Part shown: piece after piece, positions 3,762 to 18,338 of the stretch
How positions within the stretch are numbered: position 1 is the stretch's first letter
How the letters are laid out: every line of letters begins with the position of its first letter
IMG/VR virus record: IMGVR_UViG_3300028920_001322
Location: 1-20,756 of that record
DNA length: 20,756 bases
Strand: one strand, 5' to 3'
Source of the DNA: a virus
Program-made: the position numbers and the translations under genes
The notes under the pieces: generated by a model
Told to the model about the DNA's origin: nothing
The model's input: only the letters and a program-made list of their open reading frames with translations
Databases searched by the model: none

Positions 3762-4397
3762 ATGTCAGAAATACCAGATGCACTTTTTCCCACTGACAAT
3801 CAGCTAGATATCCCAGTTCTGAAATTGGATCTGCAAGCAGATTATTTAGATTTGCCGTTCGTCCCATATGGAAGCATAGGAAGATCAAGAAAGATGAATG
3901 GAACTTATCATTTCTATGTAGATGATAGACATTTTAGTGCATTGTGGAAAAATCCAGATAAGATTATAAAATCTGGGTGTGTTACTGTGGTAGAACCAAA
4001 CTTTTCCACATCAGAGAGCCAGCCATTAGCATATTCAATATACCAAATATATAAAAAGCGTTGGTTGTCGCGATACTGGCAGGAAAACGGAATTAGAGTT
4101 TTCGTTGATCTGAATGTTACTCCCAAATGCGAAGAGCTAAATTTTTATGGCGTTCCGGTTGGATGGAATGCATATGCTACGCGAGTCCATAAAAATACTA
4201 CAGAAGAAGAATTATTACATCAAGCCGATATAGCAAAATATCATTCTAGATCTTCAGATATATTATTTTTAGTATATGGTCATCGTAAAAGTATTGATGA
4301 ACTATGTCGCGAGCAAGGATGGATATACGTATCTGAAACATGGCCCAAACCGAAAGATTCAAACAAAAAGAAACATAAAATGAAAGTGGTGGCCTAG
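3762..4397 (+). CDS. DUF4417 family protein
   Basis: 211 residues. Recognised as DUF4417 from the run of conserved features: FYVDDRHFSALWKNPDK, then PNFSTSESQPLA, then the strong RWLSRYWQENGI motif, then FYGVPVG, then a C-terminal LVYGHRKSIDELC helix and a Lys-rich tail. DUF4417 proteins occur in tailed phages and prophages, often near terminase or head genes; their biochemical function is not known. Here it sits between small and large terminase and is followed after two bases by a Gly-rich protein, so the two probably act together. The start is ATG 3762, four bases after GGTGGT. Confidence 0.75.
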   Translation: MSEIPDALFPTDNQLDIPVLKLDLQADYLDLPFVPYGSIGRSRKMNGTYHFYVDDRHFSALWKNPDKIIKSGCVTVVEPNFSTSESQPLAYSIYQIYKKRWLSRYWQENGIRVFVDLNVTPKCEELNFYGVPVGWNAYATRVHKNTTEEELLHQADIAKYHSRSSDILFLVYGHRKSIDELCREQGWIYVSETWPKPKDSNKKKHKMKVVA

Positions 4398-5212: not shown

Positions 5213-5246
5213 TATGTTTCATCTCCAATACATACATTGTCTTGAG

Positions 5247-5266
5247 AGTATATATACTTTTCGGTG
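5247..5266 (-). promoter_or_regulatory. Archaeal BRE/TATA promoter for cassette 2
   Basis: The minus strand reads CACCGAAA then AGTATATATACT (same palindrome as at 3737-3748), followed by CTCAAGACAATG, a post-TATA sequence also found at the other cassette promoters. The TATA centre to ATG 5212 is about 41 bases. The BRE overlaps the GGTG that precedes the plus-strand terminase start at 5275. Confidence 0.75.
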
Positions 5267-5274
5267 CGCGATCC

Positions 5275-6138
5275 ATGACAACTCAAGCAGAGAAACTCAG
5301 AGAAAAGGGGCCGATCTTTTTCTGTGAAAAAATTCTTGGAACAGAATTATATCAGTACCAAAAAGATATTATTAATGCAGTATTTGAAAACCCGCGTGTG
5401 ACGGTTCGATCTGGAAATGCGGCTGGGAAGACTTACCTAGCTGCGAATTTGATTTTATCATTTTTATATTTAAACAGTCCGAGCGTTGTAATTTCGACTG
5501 CTCCGACATACAACCAGGTAGAAAAACTGATCTGGAAGGAAATTCGTACATTGTATCATGGGGCAAATGATAGAATTGTGGGGGGATTGGGGGGGACGCT
5601 GCTTCCAAGAGCCCCCGAACTGTACTTAACAAACAAATGGTTCGCGATCGGTCTATCAACAAACCAGCCAGAACGTTTACAGGGATACCATGAAGAAAAC
5701 TTATTGTTAGTTGTTGATGAAAGTTCCGGTATAAAAGATGACATTTTCGAGGCCGCACAGCGAATACTGACAAGTAAAAATACTCATATTTTACAAATCG
5801 GGAACCCAAACCCGCCAAAAGAGACCACCGGAAATTATTTTTATGATTCATTTAACAGCGAAATATACAAAAAATTTAATATTAATGCATTTGACACTAT
5901 AAACTTTACTACATTTGGCATAACTCAAGAAGATATAGAATCTGGAAAATGGAAAGAGAAGATAGGCAATAGTAAACTCCCATCTCCCTATCTCGTAACT
6001 CCTCAGTGGGTTGATGCTATGTCCACTCAATGGGGAATCGATAGTGCTGCATACAGTATTTCGGTACTTGGAGAATATCCCAAAGATGGCGCCAACAACT
6101 TGATTCCCGTAGAATGGCTTAGGGCTGCAACTCAGTAA
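5275..6138 (+). CDS. terL: Large terminase, ATPase half (split gene)
   Basis: 287 residues, cytoplasmic motor ATPase that drives DNA into the procapsid. Visible: an adenine-contacting YQYQKD near residue 27, Walker A SGNAAGKT at residues 46-53, STAPTYNQVEKLIWKE at 74-89, the LQGYHEENLLLVVDES Walker B block at 135-150 with the catalytic Glu, and coupling motif IGNPNPP at 175-181. It ends at WLRAATQ-TAA, precisely where the linker to the nuclease domain is expected. The nuclease domain is encoded by a separate gene beyond a tRNA. The chosen start ATG 5275 follows the TTTTCGGTG motif; upstream in-frame codons lie in the promoter of the minus-strand cassette. The stop is TAA, so amber suppression or pyrrolysine cannot join the halves. 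Confidence 0.9.
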   Translation: MTTQAEKLREKGPIFFCEKILGTELYQYQKDIINAVFENPRVTVRSGNAAGKTYLAANLILSFLYLNSPSVVISTAPTYNQVEKLIWKEIRTLYHGANDRIVGGLGGTLLPRAPELYLTNKWFAIGLSTNQPERLQGYHEENLLLVVDESSGIKDDIFEAAQRILTSKNTHILQIGNPNPPKETTGNYFYDSFNSEIYKKFNINAFDTINFTTFGITQEDIESGKWKEKIGNSKLPSPYLVTPQWVDAMSTQWGIDSAAYSISVLGEYPKDGANNLIPVEWLRAATQ

Positions 6139-6161
6139 ATTTTATGTAAGCGTTTCGGTTG

Positions 6162-6234
6162 GCCAACATAGCTCAATTGGCAGAGCAGGTCCCCTGTAAG
6201 GACCAGGTTGTCGGTTCGATTCCGGCTGTTGGCT
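6162..6234 (+). tRNA. tRNA-Thr (anticodon UGU), with C33
   Basis: A full 73-nt cloverleaf: acceptor GCCAACA/TGTTGGC (7 bp), D stem GCTC/GAGC, anticodon stem GGTCC/GGACC (6188-6192 with 6200-6204), loop CCTGTAA (6193-6199), 5-nt variable region, T stem GTCGG/CCGGC with loop TTCGATT. Anticodon 6195-6197 is TGT, reading ACA (threonine). G1-C72, C2-G71 and discriminator U73 agree with archaeal tRNA-Thr; CCA is not encoded. The near-universal U33 before the anticodon is C here, which is rare. It lies 23 bases after the ATPase-half stop and 21 bases before the nuclease-half start, and is preceded by a GTTTCGGTTGG sequence like that before many virion genes. Confidence 0.93.
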
Positions 6235-6255
6235 TTATACTATTTGGTGAATAAT

Positions 6256-6834
6256 ATGCCTAATATAATATTTGGTGCGGACATTGCCAGATTTGGGGAA
6301 GACAGTTCCGTAATCGCTATCAGAGAAGATAATAGAGTTCTACCATTAATAATATATAATAAACTTGATACAATGGCGATCGCGAACACCATAGGGATTC
6401 ATGCAGATGAATATCAACCGTCATCAATTTTTGTAGATGTTATTGGCGTTGGGAGTGGTGTTGTAGATCGCTTGGCTCAAGTAGGGTATCCGGTCGTTGG
6501 GGTCAACGTGGCCGAAAAATCGCATTTTCCTGAGAAGTTCACAAATTTGAAATCTGAGTTATGGTGGAATCTCAGAATACAATTAAATCCAAAATATAAT
6601 AATCCCATAAAAATTCCTGATGATAAGTTGTTGTTTGATGAATTACGCAGAACGTCTTATATATATGATGAAAAGGGGCGCTTACGAATAGAAAAGAAAG
6701 ATAAAATAAAAAAGATGTTGGGTCGGTCTCCCGACAGAGCAGACGCAGTAGTTCTGGCCGCGATCAATTCCGTTGGGGAATCCGGCAAGGGCTCCGACGT
6801 TGGCTTAAAATCCAATATGGAGCTACCCTGGTAG
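6256..6834 (+). CDS. terL: Large terminase, nuclease half (split gene)
   Basis: 192 residues with an RNase H-like terminase nuclease fold that cuts concatemeric DNA at initiation and termination of packaging. The three acidic metal-binding sites are present: GADIARFGED (Asp9), FVDVIGVGSG (Asp61) and RSPDRADAV (Asp160/Asp163), plus KSELWWNLRIQL and the YPVVGVNV strand. Together with the 287-residue ATPase half the length (479) equals a normal large terminase. The start ATG 6256 has GGTGA six bases upstream; an earlier in-frame codon at 6208 lies inside the tRNA and is rejected. The 3' end overlaps a convergent minus-strand gene by 12 bp. Confidence 0.88.
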   Translation: MPNIIFGADIARFGEDSSVIAIREDNRVLPLIIYNKLDTMAIANTIGIHADEYQPSSIFVDVIGVGSGVVDRLAQVGYPVVGVNVAEKSHFPEKFTNLKSELWWNLRIQLNPKYNNPIKIPDDKLLFDELRRTSYIYDEKGRLRIEKKDKIKKMLGRSPDRADAVVLAAINSVGESGKGSDVGLKSNMELPW

Positions 6835-6945
6835 GTCGCATTCGCAAAACTGTTCTGGATTGAACATAGCTTCTCTTTCTTGTTGGCGGTCGTCTGTATA
6901 CCTAACAACCTTTCCACATTTCTCGCAAATAGTTTTTATTGTCAT
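6823..6945 (-). CDS. Cassette 3a: 40-aa zinc-ribbon peptide
   Basis: Short gene with start ATG 6945 and GAGGTGA eight bases upstream; that ribosome-binding site lies in the last codons of the preceding minus-strand gene. The translation starts MTIKTICEKCGKVVRYTDD and ends with FCECDLPG. Two cysteine pairs, CEKC and CEC, about 24 residues apart, can bind one zinc. It ends inside the 3' end of the terminase nuclease gene (12-bp antisense overlap). It is the third and last gene of a minus-strand operon starting at 7365. Function unknown; small viral zinc ribbons often bind nucleic acid or inhibit host proteins. Confidence 0.6.
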   Translation of the reverse strand: MTIKTICEKCGKVVRYTDDRQQEREAMFNPEQFCECDLPG

Positions 6946-6946
6946 T

Positions 6947-7105
6947 TTATCTCACCTCTTCAGACCACATATCATTTTTTACCGGATCCAATCCTTTCGA
7001 TTTCGCAACTTTGTCAGCTTGATGCCGTATGGCATCTATATCTATTTCATCAAGGATAAAGTAATCTGCGCATCCATTCACAGTATAGTGTATTTTGTAT
7101 TTCAT
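6947..7105 (-). CDS. Cassette 3b: 52-aa hypothetical protein
   Basis: Start ATG 7105 overlaps the stop of the upstream minus-strand gene (TAATG), so translation is coupled. The protein begins MKYKIHYTVNGCADYFILDE, a strand-rich start, and continues with a helix IDAIRHQADKVAKSKGL ending VKNDMWSEEVR. The beta-beta-helix pattern and size resemble small phage proteins of unknown role. It stops one base before the ATG of the next gene and its final codons contain that gene's ribosome-binding site, strong evidence that all three genes are real. Confidence 0.6.
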   Translation of the reverse strand: MKYKIHYTVNGCADYFILDEIDIDAIRHQADKVAKSKGLDPVKNDMWSEEVR

Positions 7106-7365
7106 TACGCCACCCCTCGCCTTTCTTTTTCATCATCGTATCCCTTCACGAAAATCGCAACAAATCTCTCATGAGCTTCGATCTCGTCATCGACTATCAA
7201 AATGCCTTCTTGGATATCACCAGAAAATACTTCCTCTGCCACTTGATTGGCATCGACATTTTTTAGATCTTCATCATTTAATACTTGAGCCGATTCTCTG
7301 CCATATTCAAAGGCCATGCGGCAAAATTCTATTCGGTCGTACACACTAGTTTTCAAGTTCCACAT
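7105..7365 (-). CDS. Cassette 3c: 86-aa acidic hypothetical protein
   Basis: First gene of the three-gene minus-strand operon. Start ATG 7365 has GAGGT about nine bases upstream, and the promoter is at 7408-7426. The protein is mainly helical and acidic (YDRIEFCRMAFEYGRESAQ, NDEDLKNVDANQVAEEVF), with a central strand GILIVDDEIEAHERFVAIF and a charged tail. No recognised domain. The leader and promoter are nearly identical to those of the unrelated minus-strand gene at 11019-11306, implying shared control. Confidence 0.6.
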   Translation of the reverse strand: MWNLKTSVYDRIEFCRMAFEYGRESAQVLNDEDLKNVDANQVAEEVFSGDIQEGILIVDDEIEAHERFVAIFVKGYDDEKERRGVA

Positions 7366-7373
7366 TTTTTTAT

Positions 7374-7417
7374 ACCTCGTATTTCTACAATACTACATTG
7401 TCTTTAGAGTATATATA
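7374..7417 (-). repeat. Promoter-leader repeat, copy 1
   Basis: 44 bases that match 11315-11358 with only two substitutions by eye. The segment spans the TATA box through the transcribed leader to the GAGGT ribosome-binding site, upstream of the minus-strand gene starting at 7365. The two downstream genes are unrelated, so the regulatory segment, not the gene, is what is duplicated. Confidence 0.85.
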
Positions 7418-7426
7418 TTTTTCTGT
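7408..7426 (-). promoter_or_regulatory. Archaeal promoter for cassette 3 operon
   Basis: The minus strand reads ACAGAAAAATATATATACT, then CTAAAGACAATGTA. The BRE is one base off the ACCGAAA of the other cassettes, and here no plus-strand gene starts next to it, so constraint from a plus-strand ribosome-binding site is absent. The TATA centre is about 48 bases from ATG 7365. Confidence 0.65.
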
Positions 7427-7457
7427 CCTTAGGTTTTCATACATAGAACATTAATTC

Positions 7458-7475
7458 TAAAAAAATAAATAAAAA
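7458..7475 (-). terminator. Oligo-T terminator after the 69-aa minus-strand gene
   Basis: Directly after the stop of the gene at 7478-7687, the minus strand reads five T, then ATTTA, then seven T. Such T clusters terminate archaeal RNA polymerase. It separates this gene from the downstream promoter of cassette 3. Confidence 0.5.
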
Positions 7476-7477
7476 GG

Positions 7478-7687
7478 TTAGTATTCTGTTTCCACGATAG
7501 TCCAAAACTTATAATCGTGTTCAGCCAGAATTTTACCCCCGTCAATTTTGTTAACTGACCATTTGTTTATATCATCATATTCTATCTTCCATATTCCCCA
7601 TTCTGGGTTATCGGTTGATACAACTTTGATTCCAGGCTCGATGTTCTCAGAAGTTAAGATTCCTTTTTCTGTAATTTTTGGGTACAT
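7478..7687 (-). CDS. Cassette 4: 69-aa beta-rich hypothetical protein
   Basis: The start ATG 7687 has GGTGAAATG upstream; an ATG four codons earlier is followed at once by a stop and is rejected. The sequence suggests a small beta barrel: ENIEPGIKVVSTDNPEWGIWK, IEYDDINKWSVNK, then FWTIVETEY, with a PG-K-V pattern like small SH3/KOW-type folds. It may bind nucleic acid or protein; no family recognised. It has its own BRE/TATA promoter (7718-7736) and an oligo-T terminator, so it forms a complete single-gene transcription unit. Confidence 0.6.
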   Translation of the reverse strand: MYPKITEKGILTSENIEPGIKVVSTDNPEWGIWKIEYDDINKWSVNKIDGGKILAEHDYKFWTIVETEY

Positions 7688-7717
7688 GTCATTTCACCAT
7701 GTAATACTTGTCTTGTG

Positions 7718-7736
7718 AGTATATATAGTTTTCGGT
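7718..7736 (-). promoter_or_regulatory. Archaeal promoter for cassette 4
   Basis: The minus strand reads ACCGAAAACTATATATACT, then CACAAGACAAG. It lies between two minus-strand genes with no plus-strand start nearby, which shows that ACCGAAA here serves as a BRE rather than as a ribosome-binding site for a plus-strand gene. The TATA centre is about 36 bases from ATG 7687. Confidence 0.75.
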
Positions 7737-7738
7737 AC

Positions 7739-8089
7739 TTAGCTTTCCATAGATAATAGTTGTTGCACTTCTTCAGAAAAGCGCTCCCGTGGTACAAATA
7801 CGTGAATTTGTGTTACTTGGAAGTTATTACATTTTCCAAATAAATGAACTATTTCTTCCTCCATAAATGCATACCGAACATACGTAAATGGTTGTGATCC
7901 ACAATATTCTCCATGATCTATTCCTCTGGCATTTCCAATAGTTGCGTGTTCCCAGTCTCGTACTTTTATGTGTTCCATTAGGGTCTCGACGATATCAGTT
8001 TCGATATTGTTCATATTGTATCCTATTATTATTATAGAATAATCTCCATTACGTATTATTGCCTTGTAGTCATTTTTTACAAAATGCAT
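7739..8089 (-). CDS. Cassette 5: 116-aa hypothetical protein
   Basis: Start ATG 8089; no clear ribosome-binding site, and the TATA centre is only about 25 bases away, so the transcript may be leaderless. The protein has an N-terminal strand pair (YKAIIRNGDYSIIIIGYNM), a helix, an RDWEHATIGNARGIDHGEYCG segment, then YVRYAFMEEEIVHLFGKC and a C-terminal QIHVFVPRERFSEEVQQLL. This looks like a compact alpha/beta protein. Not recognised. It sits directly before the portal gene, in the opposite orientation. Confidence 0.6.
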   Translation of the reverse strand: MHFVKNDYKAIIRNGDYSIIIIGYNMNNIETDIVETLMEHIKVRDWEHATIGNARGIDHGEYCGSQPFTYVRYAFMEEEIVHLFGKCNNFQVTQIHVFVPRERFSEEVQQLLSMES

Positions 8090-8108
8090 ATGGCATTATT
8101 ATCAATAT

Positions 8109-8129
8109 AGTATATATATCTTTCGGTGG
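8109..8129 (-). promoter_or_regulatory. Archaeal promoter for cassette 5
   Basis: The minus strand reads CCACCGAAAGATATATATACT. The BRE overlaps the GGTGGT ribosome-binding site of the portal gene (ATG 8135) on the plus strand. TATA to ATG 8089 spacing matches a leaderless mRNA. Confidence 0.7.
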
Positions 8130-8134
8130 TTTCC

Positions 8135-9649
8135 ATGCCTAAAAAAAATACTAATTCCAAATTACAAATTACAGAAAATGCAGCTGGGGCATCCGCAACA
8201 ACTGGACTTTTGTTTGCCCTTGATCCGTCGGACTCAGATTATATTGAGTTTGAACTAGAAGACTTGCGCAAAGCCCGAAAAAATGATACGGTTGACAGAG
8301 TTTTGCAGGCTTTGAAGGATTTTTCTTTTCAATTGGAGGACATAGAACCAATTCCACCCATCGATAAGGAAGTTTCTGAGGAAGAAATTGAGGAAGTCCG
8401 CCAAAAAATCCATCAAATAGACCGAATAATCAATACGGAGGAGTCCACGAAAGCTGCGTGGGACGACGAAATTACGTATGGATCGGGAATCTTCAATTTT
8501 AATTCTGCAACAGAAGATGTTACTGGGTGGAAGTCTCCAACGGTATTTAAATTATTACCTGCATATTCTTTTAGCGAAGCACCATCCGACTATATAGGAG
8601 ACACAACTAGATATAAGCAGTCCCAATTTTTGGAAGGAATACTGTATGATAAAAATGACGACAAATATATATATTACCAGAAACAGGGAACCATCAATAC
8701 AGAAATAAAAAATGAAGAAGTACTACACATAAAAAGTAAAATTGCAGACTTCCCAGATGGAAAATCCAGACTAATTAATATTATTCATTTAATAAAACAG
8801 ATGGGAGATATTGACGTTGCGCGAATGCAATGTATTCGACGCGCCGGCGCTCCAATAATTCTGTTTAAGATCAATCCTCCAGAGACCCAAATGGACTTAA
8901 ACTATGGATATAAAGATTCCAGCGGGAAGAATCTGTGGGCAACATACAAAGAACGCCACGAATATATACAGAAAGTTGCAATCAACCAAAGCAGATCTAA
9001 TGTATTCATTGTTCCCGATTGGTGCGAAGTCATACCTATTGACGTTTCTAATGTTTTGGAGACTGTTAGGGAAGAGTACAACGATAAAGTATTACGAGTA
9101 GTCCAATATTTCATATCGCGGGACTTTACCGAAAATTCCGGAAATGCTATCTCTCAGTCTGCGAAACCTGGATTGGACTTAATTAAGCTCCAAGCCGAAG
9201 GAAGAAGAAAAGAAATCGGCCAGCATTTTGTACAATTCTGGGAAAAGATATTAGCAGAAAATGGTAAAGAAGGGTGGACCGTATCATTAAACTGGAAAGA
9301 TTTGAATCCAAGAGATTTACTGAATGATGCAAGGGCCTCCGAGTTGTTACGAAAAGCAGGAGCCTTCACACTTAATGATATCAGAGAGGCTGTTGGGTAT
9401 TCGGAATTGGCAGATGAAGAAAGGGTCGAACTAGAACAATTGGGAAGCATCCCAGAAATGGATCCCGAAGAAACCGAAATGGAAGAGGAACCAGAACTTC
9501 AACACAAAATCGAACTGAACAAAAAGTACGATCTGGAAAAAGAGGGAGATCTGACCGAAGAAGAATTATCTGAACTAATAAAGGATTCTCCCCTAAACAT
9601 TCTGAGAGCGAAAGGGAAACTAGAAGCTTTTATGGATAGAATAAAATAA
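8135..9649 (+). CDS. Portal protein
   Basis: 504 residues, the expected size for a portal, the dodecameric ring at the capsid vertex through which DNA is packed and ejected. Features fitting the family: a helical N-terminal region after a low-complexity start, a long helix with acidic residues (EVSEEEIEEVRQKIHQI), the FKLLPAYSFSEAP and QFLEGILYDKNDD strand-rich wing/clip region, the EEVLHIKSKIADFPDGKSRL loop, IHLIKQMGDIDVARMQCIR stem helix, ISQSAKPGLDLIKLQAEGRRK, and an acidic C-terminus (EMDPEETEMEEEPE). It lies after terminase and before the Mu-F-like protein, the standard order. The start ATG 8135 follows TTTCGGTGGT; an in-frame ATG three codons earlier overlaps that site. Confidence 0.85.
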   Translation: MPKKNTNSKLQITENAAGASATTGLLFALDPSDSDYIEFELEDLRKARKNDTVDRVLQALKDFSFQLEDIEPIPPIDKEVSEEEIEEVRQKIHQIDRIINTEESTKAAWDDEITYGSGIFNFNSATEDVTGWKSPTVFKLLPAYSFSEAPSDYIGDTTRYKQSQFLEGILYDKNDDKYIYYQKQGTINTEIKNEEVLHIKSKIADFPDGKSRLINIIHLIKQMGDIDVARMQCIRRAGAPIILFKINPPETQMDLNYGYKDSSGKNLWATYKERHEYIQKVAINQSRSNVFIVPDWCEVIPIDVSNVLETVREEYNDKVLRVVQYFISRDFTENSGNAISQSAKPGLDLIKLQAEGRRKEIGQHFVQFWEKILAENGKEGWTVSLNWKDLNPRDLLNDARASELLRKAGAFTLNDIREAVGYSELADEERVELEQLGSIPEMDPEETEMEEEPELQHKIELNKKYDLEKEGDLTEEELSELIKDSPLNILRAKGKLEAFMDRIK

Positions 9650-18320: not shown

Positions 18321-18338
18321 TAATTTATGGTGAATAAA

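Follow-up and report, generated by a model that had tools for sequence, protein, structure and literature searches.

The large terminase subunit (TerL) of this virus is encoded by two adjacent reading frames 117 nucleotides apart, one for the ATPase domain (terL-N) and one for the RNase H-like nuclease domain (terL-C), with a complete tRNA-Thr gene between them (Table 1). TerL couples DNA pumping and cutting in one chain, and the cross-talk between its domains is a long-standing question. In the window (the whole stretch of DNA that was analysed, a virus record of 20,756 bases with linear ends that is probably incomplete), TerL is not encoded as a single polypeptide, and a two-subunit terminase appears to be the best explanation of the split. 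We consider it probable that TerL is made as two polypeptides from a transcript that is cut at the tRNA, and that the two chains join on the portal.

Table 1. Features of the divided terL locus and of related genes in the window
Feature	Coordinates	Strand	Remarks
Possible small terminase subunit, 168 aa	2992..3498	+	Tentative, based on position and an apparent combination of HTH and coiled coil
Promoter-like repeat (TTGTCTTGAGAGTATATATACTTTTCGGTG type) before ATPase half	5236..5266	+	Reference copy of eight-copy family D1
terL-N, ATPase half, 287 aa	5275..6138	+	Walker A K52 T53, Walker B D148 E149, GNP 176-178
23-nt spacer, ATPase-half stop to tRNA	6139..6161	+
tRNA-Thr, anticodon TGT (UGU)	6162..6234	+	C at position 33, U73, no encoded CCA
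21-nt leader of nuclease half, GGTGA ribosome-binding site	6235..6255	+	Similar leader before gene 18327 (family D12)
terL-C, RNase H-like nuclease half, 192 aa	6256..6834	+	Acidic residues D9, D61, D160, D163
Portal protein	8138..9649	+	PHROG 12, E 6e-4; 26-29% to proteins of relatives L006 and L074

The divided terL gene and its tRNA

The terL-N frame starts with the ATG at 5275 and stops, as originally predicted, with TAA (6136-6138), and terL-C extends from the ATG at 6256 to a TAG at 6834. The ATPase half matches PHROG 2 (terminase large subunit) up to profile position 468 (E = 1.8e-21), and the match resumes in the nuclease half at position 482 (E = 1.4e-13); therefore, the break lies within the linker. 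Together with the Rfam match described below, this establishes that the original prediction had placed correctly both the split at the ATPase/nuclease boundary and the tRNA-Thr in the gap. The ATPase half ends with the last conserved ATPase helix. The nuclease half begins just before the first catalytic strand and, as had also been proposed, has its own ribosome-binding site, a GGTGA located five bases before the ATG at 6256 in a leader that is 81% repeated before the gene at 18327. The combined length of the halves was expected to be normal, and indeed they total 479 amino acids, versus 480 in the intact relatives L002 and L003.

The catalytic motifs are present across both halves. K52, D148, E149, N177 and P178 of the ATPase domain are invariant, as are D9, D61, D160 and D163 of terL-C among the aligned relatives. 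Across 63 intact relatives, 33 alignment columns are invariant, and the window TerL keeps 30 of them, including (in read-through numbering) K52, D148, E149, D336, D487 and D490. It differs at 20 of the 108 strongly conserved columns, which is the most of any row. The end branch of terL-N is the longest in its tree (1.59, versus a median of 0.16), and that of terL-C is among the long ones (1.39, versus a median of 0.32). These long branches and the 20 departures could possibly reflect relaxed constraint on the split TerL. Because several intact TerL lineages are also on long branches, the long window branch may instead reflect a divergent lineage.

Both halves are in the same frame, interrupted by the TAA at 6136 and by a TAG at 6169, within the tRNA. 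A read-through fold, in which the stops were read as Gln for the model only, has pLDDT values mostly above 90 in both domains and below 50 in residues 294-309 (the tRNA-coded linker), in residues 183-185 and in the C-terminal tail. Its best PDB matches are the large terminases Sf6 gp2 and T4 gp17.

The tRNA-Thr gene is 73 nucleotides long and is the single tRNA in the whole record. It scores 63 bits with the Rfam tRNA model, versus a cut-off of 29 (E = 8.6e-12), and ARAGORN places it at 6161-6235. The RNA forms a cloverleaf with the expected D, T and anticodon features, except that C33 replaces U33. The gap thus holds a complete tRNA, as predicted, but the description of almost no slack on either side was somewhat strong, because 23 and 21 nucleotides separate the tRNA from the flanking genes. 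The gene shares 86% identity with a tRNA-Thr from an unrelated phage that carries 31 tRNAs, and the single match elsewhere to its 28-nucleotide 5' part also lies in this phage. Its identity to the methanogen tRNA-Thr genes that were fetched is at most 74%.

Intact and split terL genes in other viruses

Relatives were fetched from IMG/VR by profile scans and a single-protein scan, and from GTDB genomes by a profile scan; no relatives were returned when the nuclease half served as the sole query. At about 214 related loci, a count that includes overlapping copies of the same contig, a single open frame spans both domains, in most cases with 8-13 residues of linker, in agreement with the view that TerL is a single chain in most tailed viruses. 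The split form is therefore derived. Several loci that matched just one of the two domain profiles were left unclassed. An ancestral gene has given way to adjacent genes that jointly hold all motifs, with two state changes on the tree, and the split terL is a rare but recognizable gene in pieces.

The TerL of Caudoviricetes sp. vir525 (BK063673; host Methanosarcinales; PHROG 2) has the same domain order and is 44% identical in the ATPase domain and 42% in the nuclease domain; capsid, portal and head genes are also common to the two viruses. Unlike the window TerL, it is a single 502-amino-acid chain with a 12-residue linker, and no tRNA was found nearby. In the phage collection, 397 records match vir525 TerL, and in 301 of these one place covers at least 80% of it; the matches are single pieces among those listed.

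A second virus, IMGVR_UViG_3300037212_000012 (L034), has a terL gene (5959-8329) in which a zinc-ribbon open reading frame and an HNH endonuclease gene interrupt the same linker. This virus is represented by contigs from four IMG/VR samples (L034, L035, L037, L038 and repeats). As in the window, the nuclease half has its own start, with an SD-like site (GTGAT) in front, and the proteins are 44-46% identical. In contrast, the intervening sequence is about 0.9 kb long and is occupied by the two open reading frames rather than by a tRNA. No Rfam intron was detected in this split terL. SH-aLRT support of 99-100% places L034 among intact relatives, and a fewest-changes count gives two splits, although an AU test on each half alone did not reject a tree that unites L034 with the window (p = 0.17). 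Because the closest relatives of L034 are intact, the two splits are probably independent. That a second virus has its terL divided at this linker too strengthens the two-subunit reading.

Three further interrupted loci represent other kinds of event. In L010 (1-1342, Bajarodcaudo virus 4), the TerL annotation gives two overlapping frames with the break inside the ATPase domain, which is a different kind of split and appears to be a frameshift or sequencing error. L057 has a frameshift near the domain boundary, different from the window split. L103 has the ATPase half only, followed by unrelated sequence, which suggests a recombination event or a chimeric contig. The original interpretation stands with regard to a true boundary split, the motifs and the ribosome-binding site, but the other genomes it had looked to, with a tRNA in the same place, did not emerge: no other tRNA lies between TerL halves among the loci fetched.

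Split phage enzymes have been shown to be active in the cases of Aeh1 NrdA and gp43A/43B of phage 25 (PMC2988022). These genes in pieces of T4-like phages (nrdA of Aeh1, split by mobE, and gp43A/43B of phages 25 and 44RR) resemble the window locus in that one enzyme is two chains from adjacent genes. However, they concern other enzymes, and their halves are separated by a homing endonuclease gene or by untranslated sequence instead of a tRNA. The terL coding sequences of phD2B, K1E, ICP1, SIOphi and phiAGATE are also interrupted, but by an intron or homing endonuclease; splicing has been shown for ICP1, SIOphi and phiAGATE, and suggested for phD2B. A TerL with an intein is also known (PMC7156551). 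Among the papers searched, none described a terL divided by a tRNA, whereas split or intron-bearing phage terL genes and two-chain phage enzymes were already known.

A possible two-chain terminase and alternative readings

The ATPase and nuclease genes are separate with a tRNA between them, and therefore the ATPase and nuclease activities probably come from chains that are made separately and then joined. One transcript from the promoter-like copy at 5236-5266 would span terL-N, the tRNA-Thr and terL-C. In general tRNA maturation, RNase P and tRNase Z cleave at the tRNA ends, and here they would free the tRNA and leave two messages, one for the ATPase and one for the RNase H-like nuclease, with translation of the nuclease message starting from the GGTGA site in front of terL-C. 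The two chains would then meet on the portal and act like the ordinary TerL domains. The tRNA probably inserted into, or came to rest in, the hypervariable interdomain linker, where the chain can be broken with no conserved residue lost. Separation of the two messages by tRNA maturation is plausible, given one promoter-like repeat in front and none inside. In animal mitochondria, tRNAs punctuate polycistronic transcripts, and the tRNA that separates the two frames here could mark cut sites in the same way, although the window would present a putative case with a single tRNA in a virus operon. A more elaborate possibility, which we regard as tentative, is a two-subunit motor in which the tRNA is a processing mark that both separates and balances the messages, and perhaps also serves in counter-defence through its C33.

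It is also conceivable, though unlikely, that terL is broken and decaying, such that the tRNA insertion inactivated it, in which case the virus would be defective or would rely on a different terminase. Decay would fit the long branches, the 20 departures at conserved columns and the incompleteness of the genome, the rest of which could encode another terL; no second terL was seen within the 20.8-kb fragment. However, both frames are open over 479 codons with the catalytic residues kept, the nuclease domain has its own SD at its start, several intact lineages are long-branched as well, and the adjoining head genes (portal, head morphogenesis and capsid) have long open frames. The SD and ATG of terL-C similarly argue against the gap being an intron, of group I or of the archaeal bulge-helix-bulge type, that is spliced to give a single-chain TerL. 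Introns are known in phage terL genes (in Bastille-like phages and ICP1, with one suggested for phD2B), but here the conserved TerL sequence leaves at most about 139 nucleotides, of which 73 are the tRNA. Moreover, no Rfam intron family matches at E<=10 in 5900-6500, no bulge-helix-bulge was found across the gap, and no intron that restores one open frame was identified, which makes splicing very unlikely.

A single chain with a tRNA-coded linker would also result if ribosomes crossed the gap by read-through or bypassing, as might be imagined from the shared frame of the halves and the mere two stops between them. Because a shared frame has a one-in-three chance, the stops differ (TAA and TAG), folded tRNA arms are in the path and an independent start site is present, this scenario is extremely improbable. 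An assembly artefact that joins two pieces at 6139-6255 is highly improbable, since such a chimera must break at the linker and insert a complete tRNA there. The halves are similarly divergent from their relatives and terL is upstream of the head module, even though the record is a single linear contig and no close relative has the same layout.

If TerL is indeed made as two chains, then two natural splits at the same point would show that the covalent linkage of the domains is dispensable, and would provide a ready-made system in which to purify, titrate and mix a packaging ATPase and nuclease. In addition, the locus would show that a tRNA gene can sit within an essential viral gene and leave the function of that gene intact.

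C33 tRNAs, promoter-like repeats and neighboring genes

The C33 residue is also present in tRNA-Thr(UGU) genes near terL in L044 and L079, as read from their sequences. At least 54 C33 tRNA-Thr genes occur in viral contigs (L340-L455), although these contigs were picked by the C33 pattern itself and the number is not a frequency. By contrast, U33 is present in 41 of 41 methanogen tRNA-Thr(UGU) genes read out, and a scan for the C33 pattern gave one real tRNA-Thr in the 295 archaeal genomes covered, while 101 Bacillota genomes yielded none. C33 therefore seems to be a feature of many viral tRNA-Thr(UGU) genes, in a set picked by that pattern, and almost never of cellular ones. Some phage tRNAs are known to resist the anticodon nucleases of the host through changes in the anticodon loop (PMC10264068), and by analogy the window tRNA may be a counter-defence tRNA whose C33 loop change confers such resistance. 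A tRNA-Thr(UGU) gene is located 0.4-1.6 kb upstream of terL in L040 (3416-3489), L044 (464-538) and L079 (152-224), and four of the ten distinct tRNAs of TerL-family loci, window included, are tRNA-Thr(UGU).

The 31-nucleotide promoter-like family TTGTCTTGAGAGTATATATACTTTTCGGTG has eight copies in the window (at 2956, 3726, 5236, 7397, 7707, 8098, 11338 and 13406), which are found at the heads of genes. The best copies share a palindromic TATA core, GTATATATAC, and the family looks like an archaeal TATA-type promoter. Several copies are between divergent genes and may drive both. The copy before terL-N ends 9 nucleotides before the ATG, and none of the eight copies is located between the terL halves. 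A promoter inside the gap was considered, but of the family only the 7-mer TTTCGGT, a frequent sequence in the window, was found there, at 6153. Minus-strand genes flank the unit of terL-N, tRNA and terL-C on both sides.

The host is probably a methanogenic archaeon, because the capsid protein has its sole match in the phage collection in vir525, which is assigned to Methanosarcinales. Further genes of the window virus are shared with vir525 and with L074. The possible small terminase subunit had no match in family searches. Although tRNA-dependent lysogeny is known (PMC10865867), use of the tRNA as an integration site is unsupported, as no integrase was seen among the window open reading frames by reading, with some of the proteins searched against families. 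A DUF4417 protein (Pfam E = 3e-31) is encoded upstream of terL at 3762-4397 and has matches in 10 related TerL loci.
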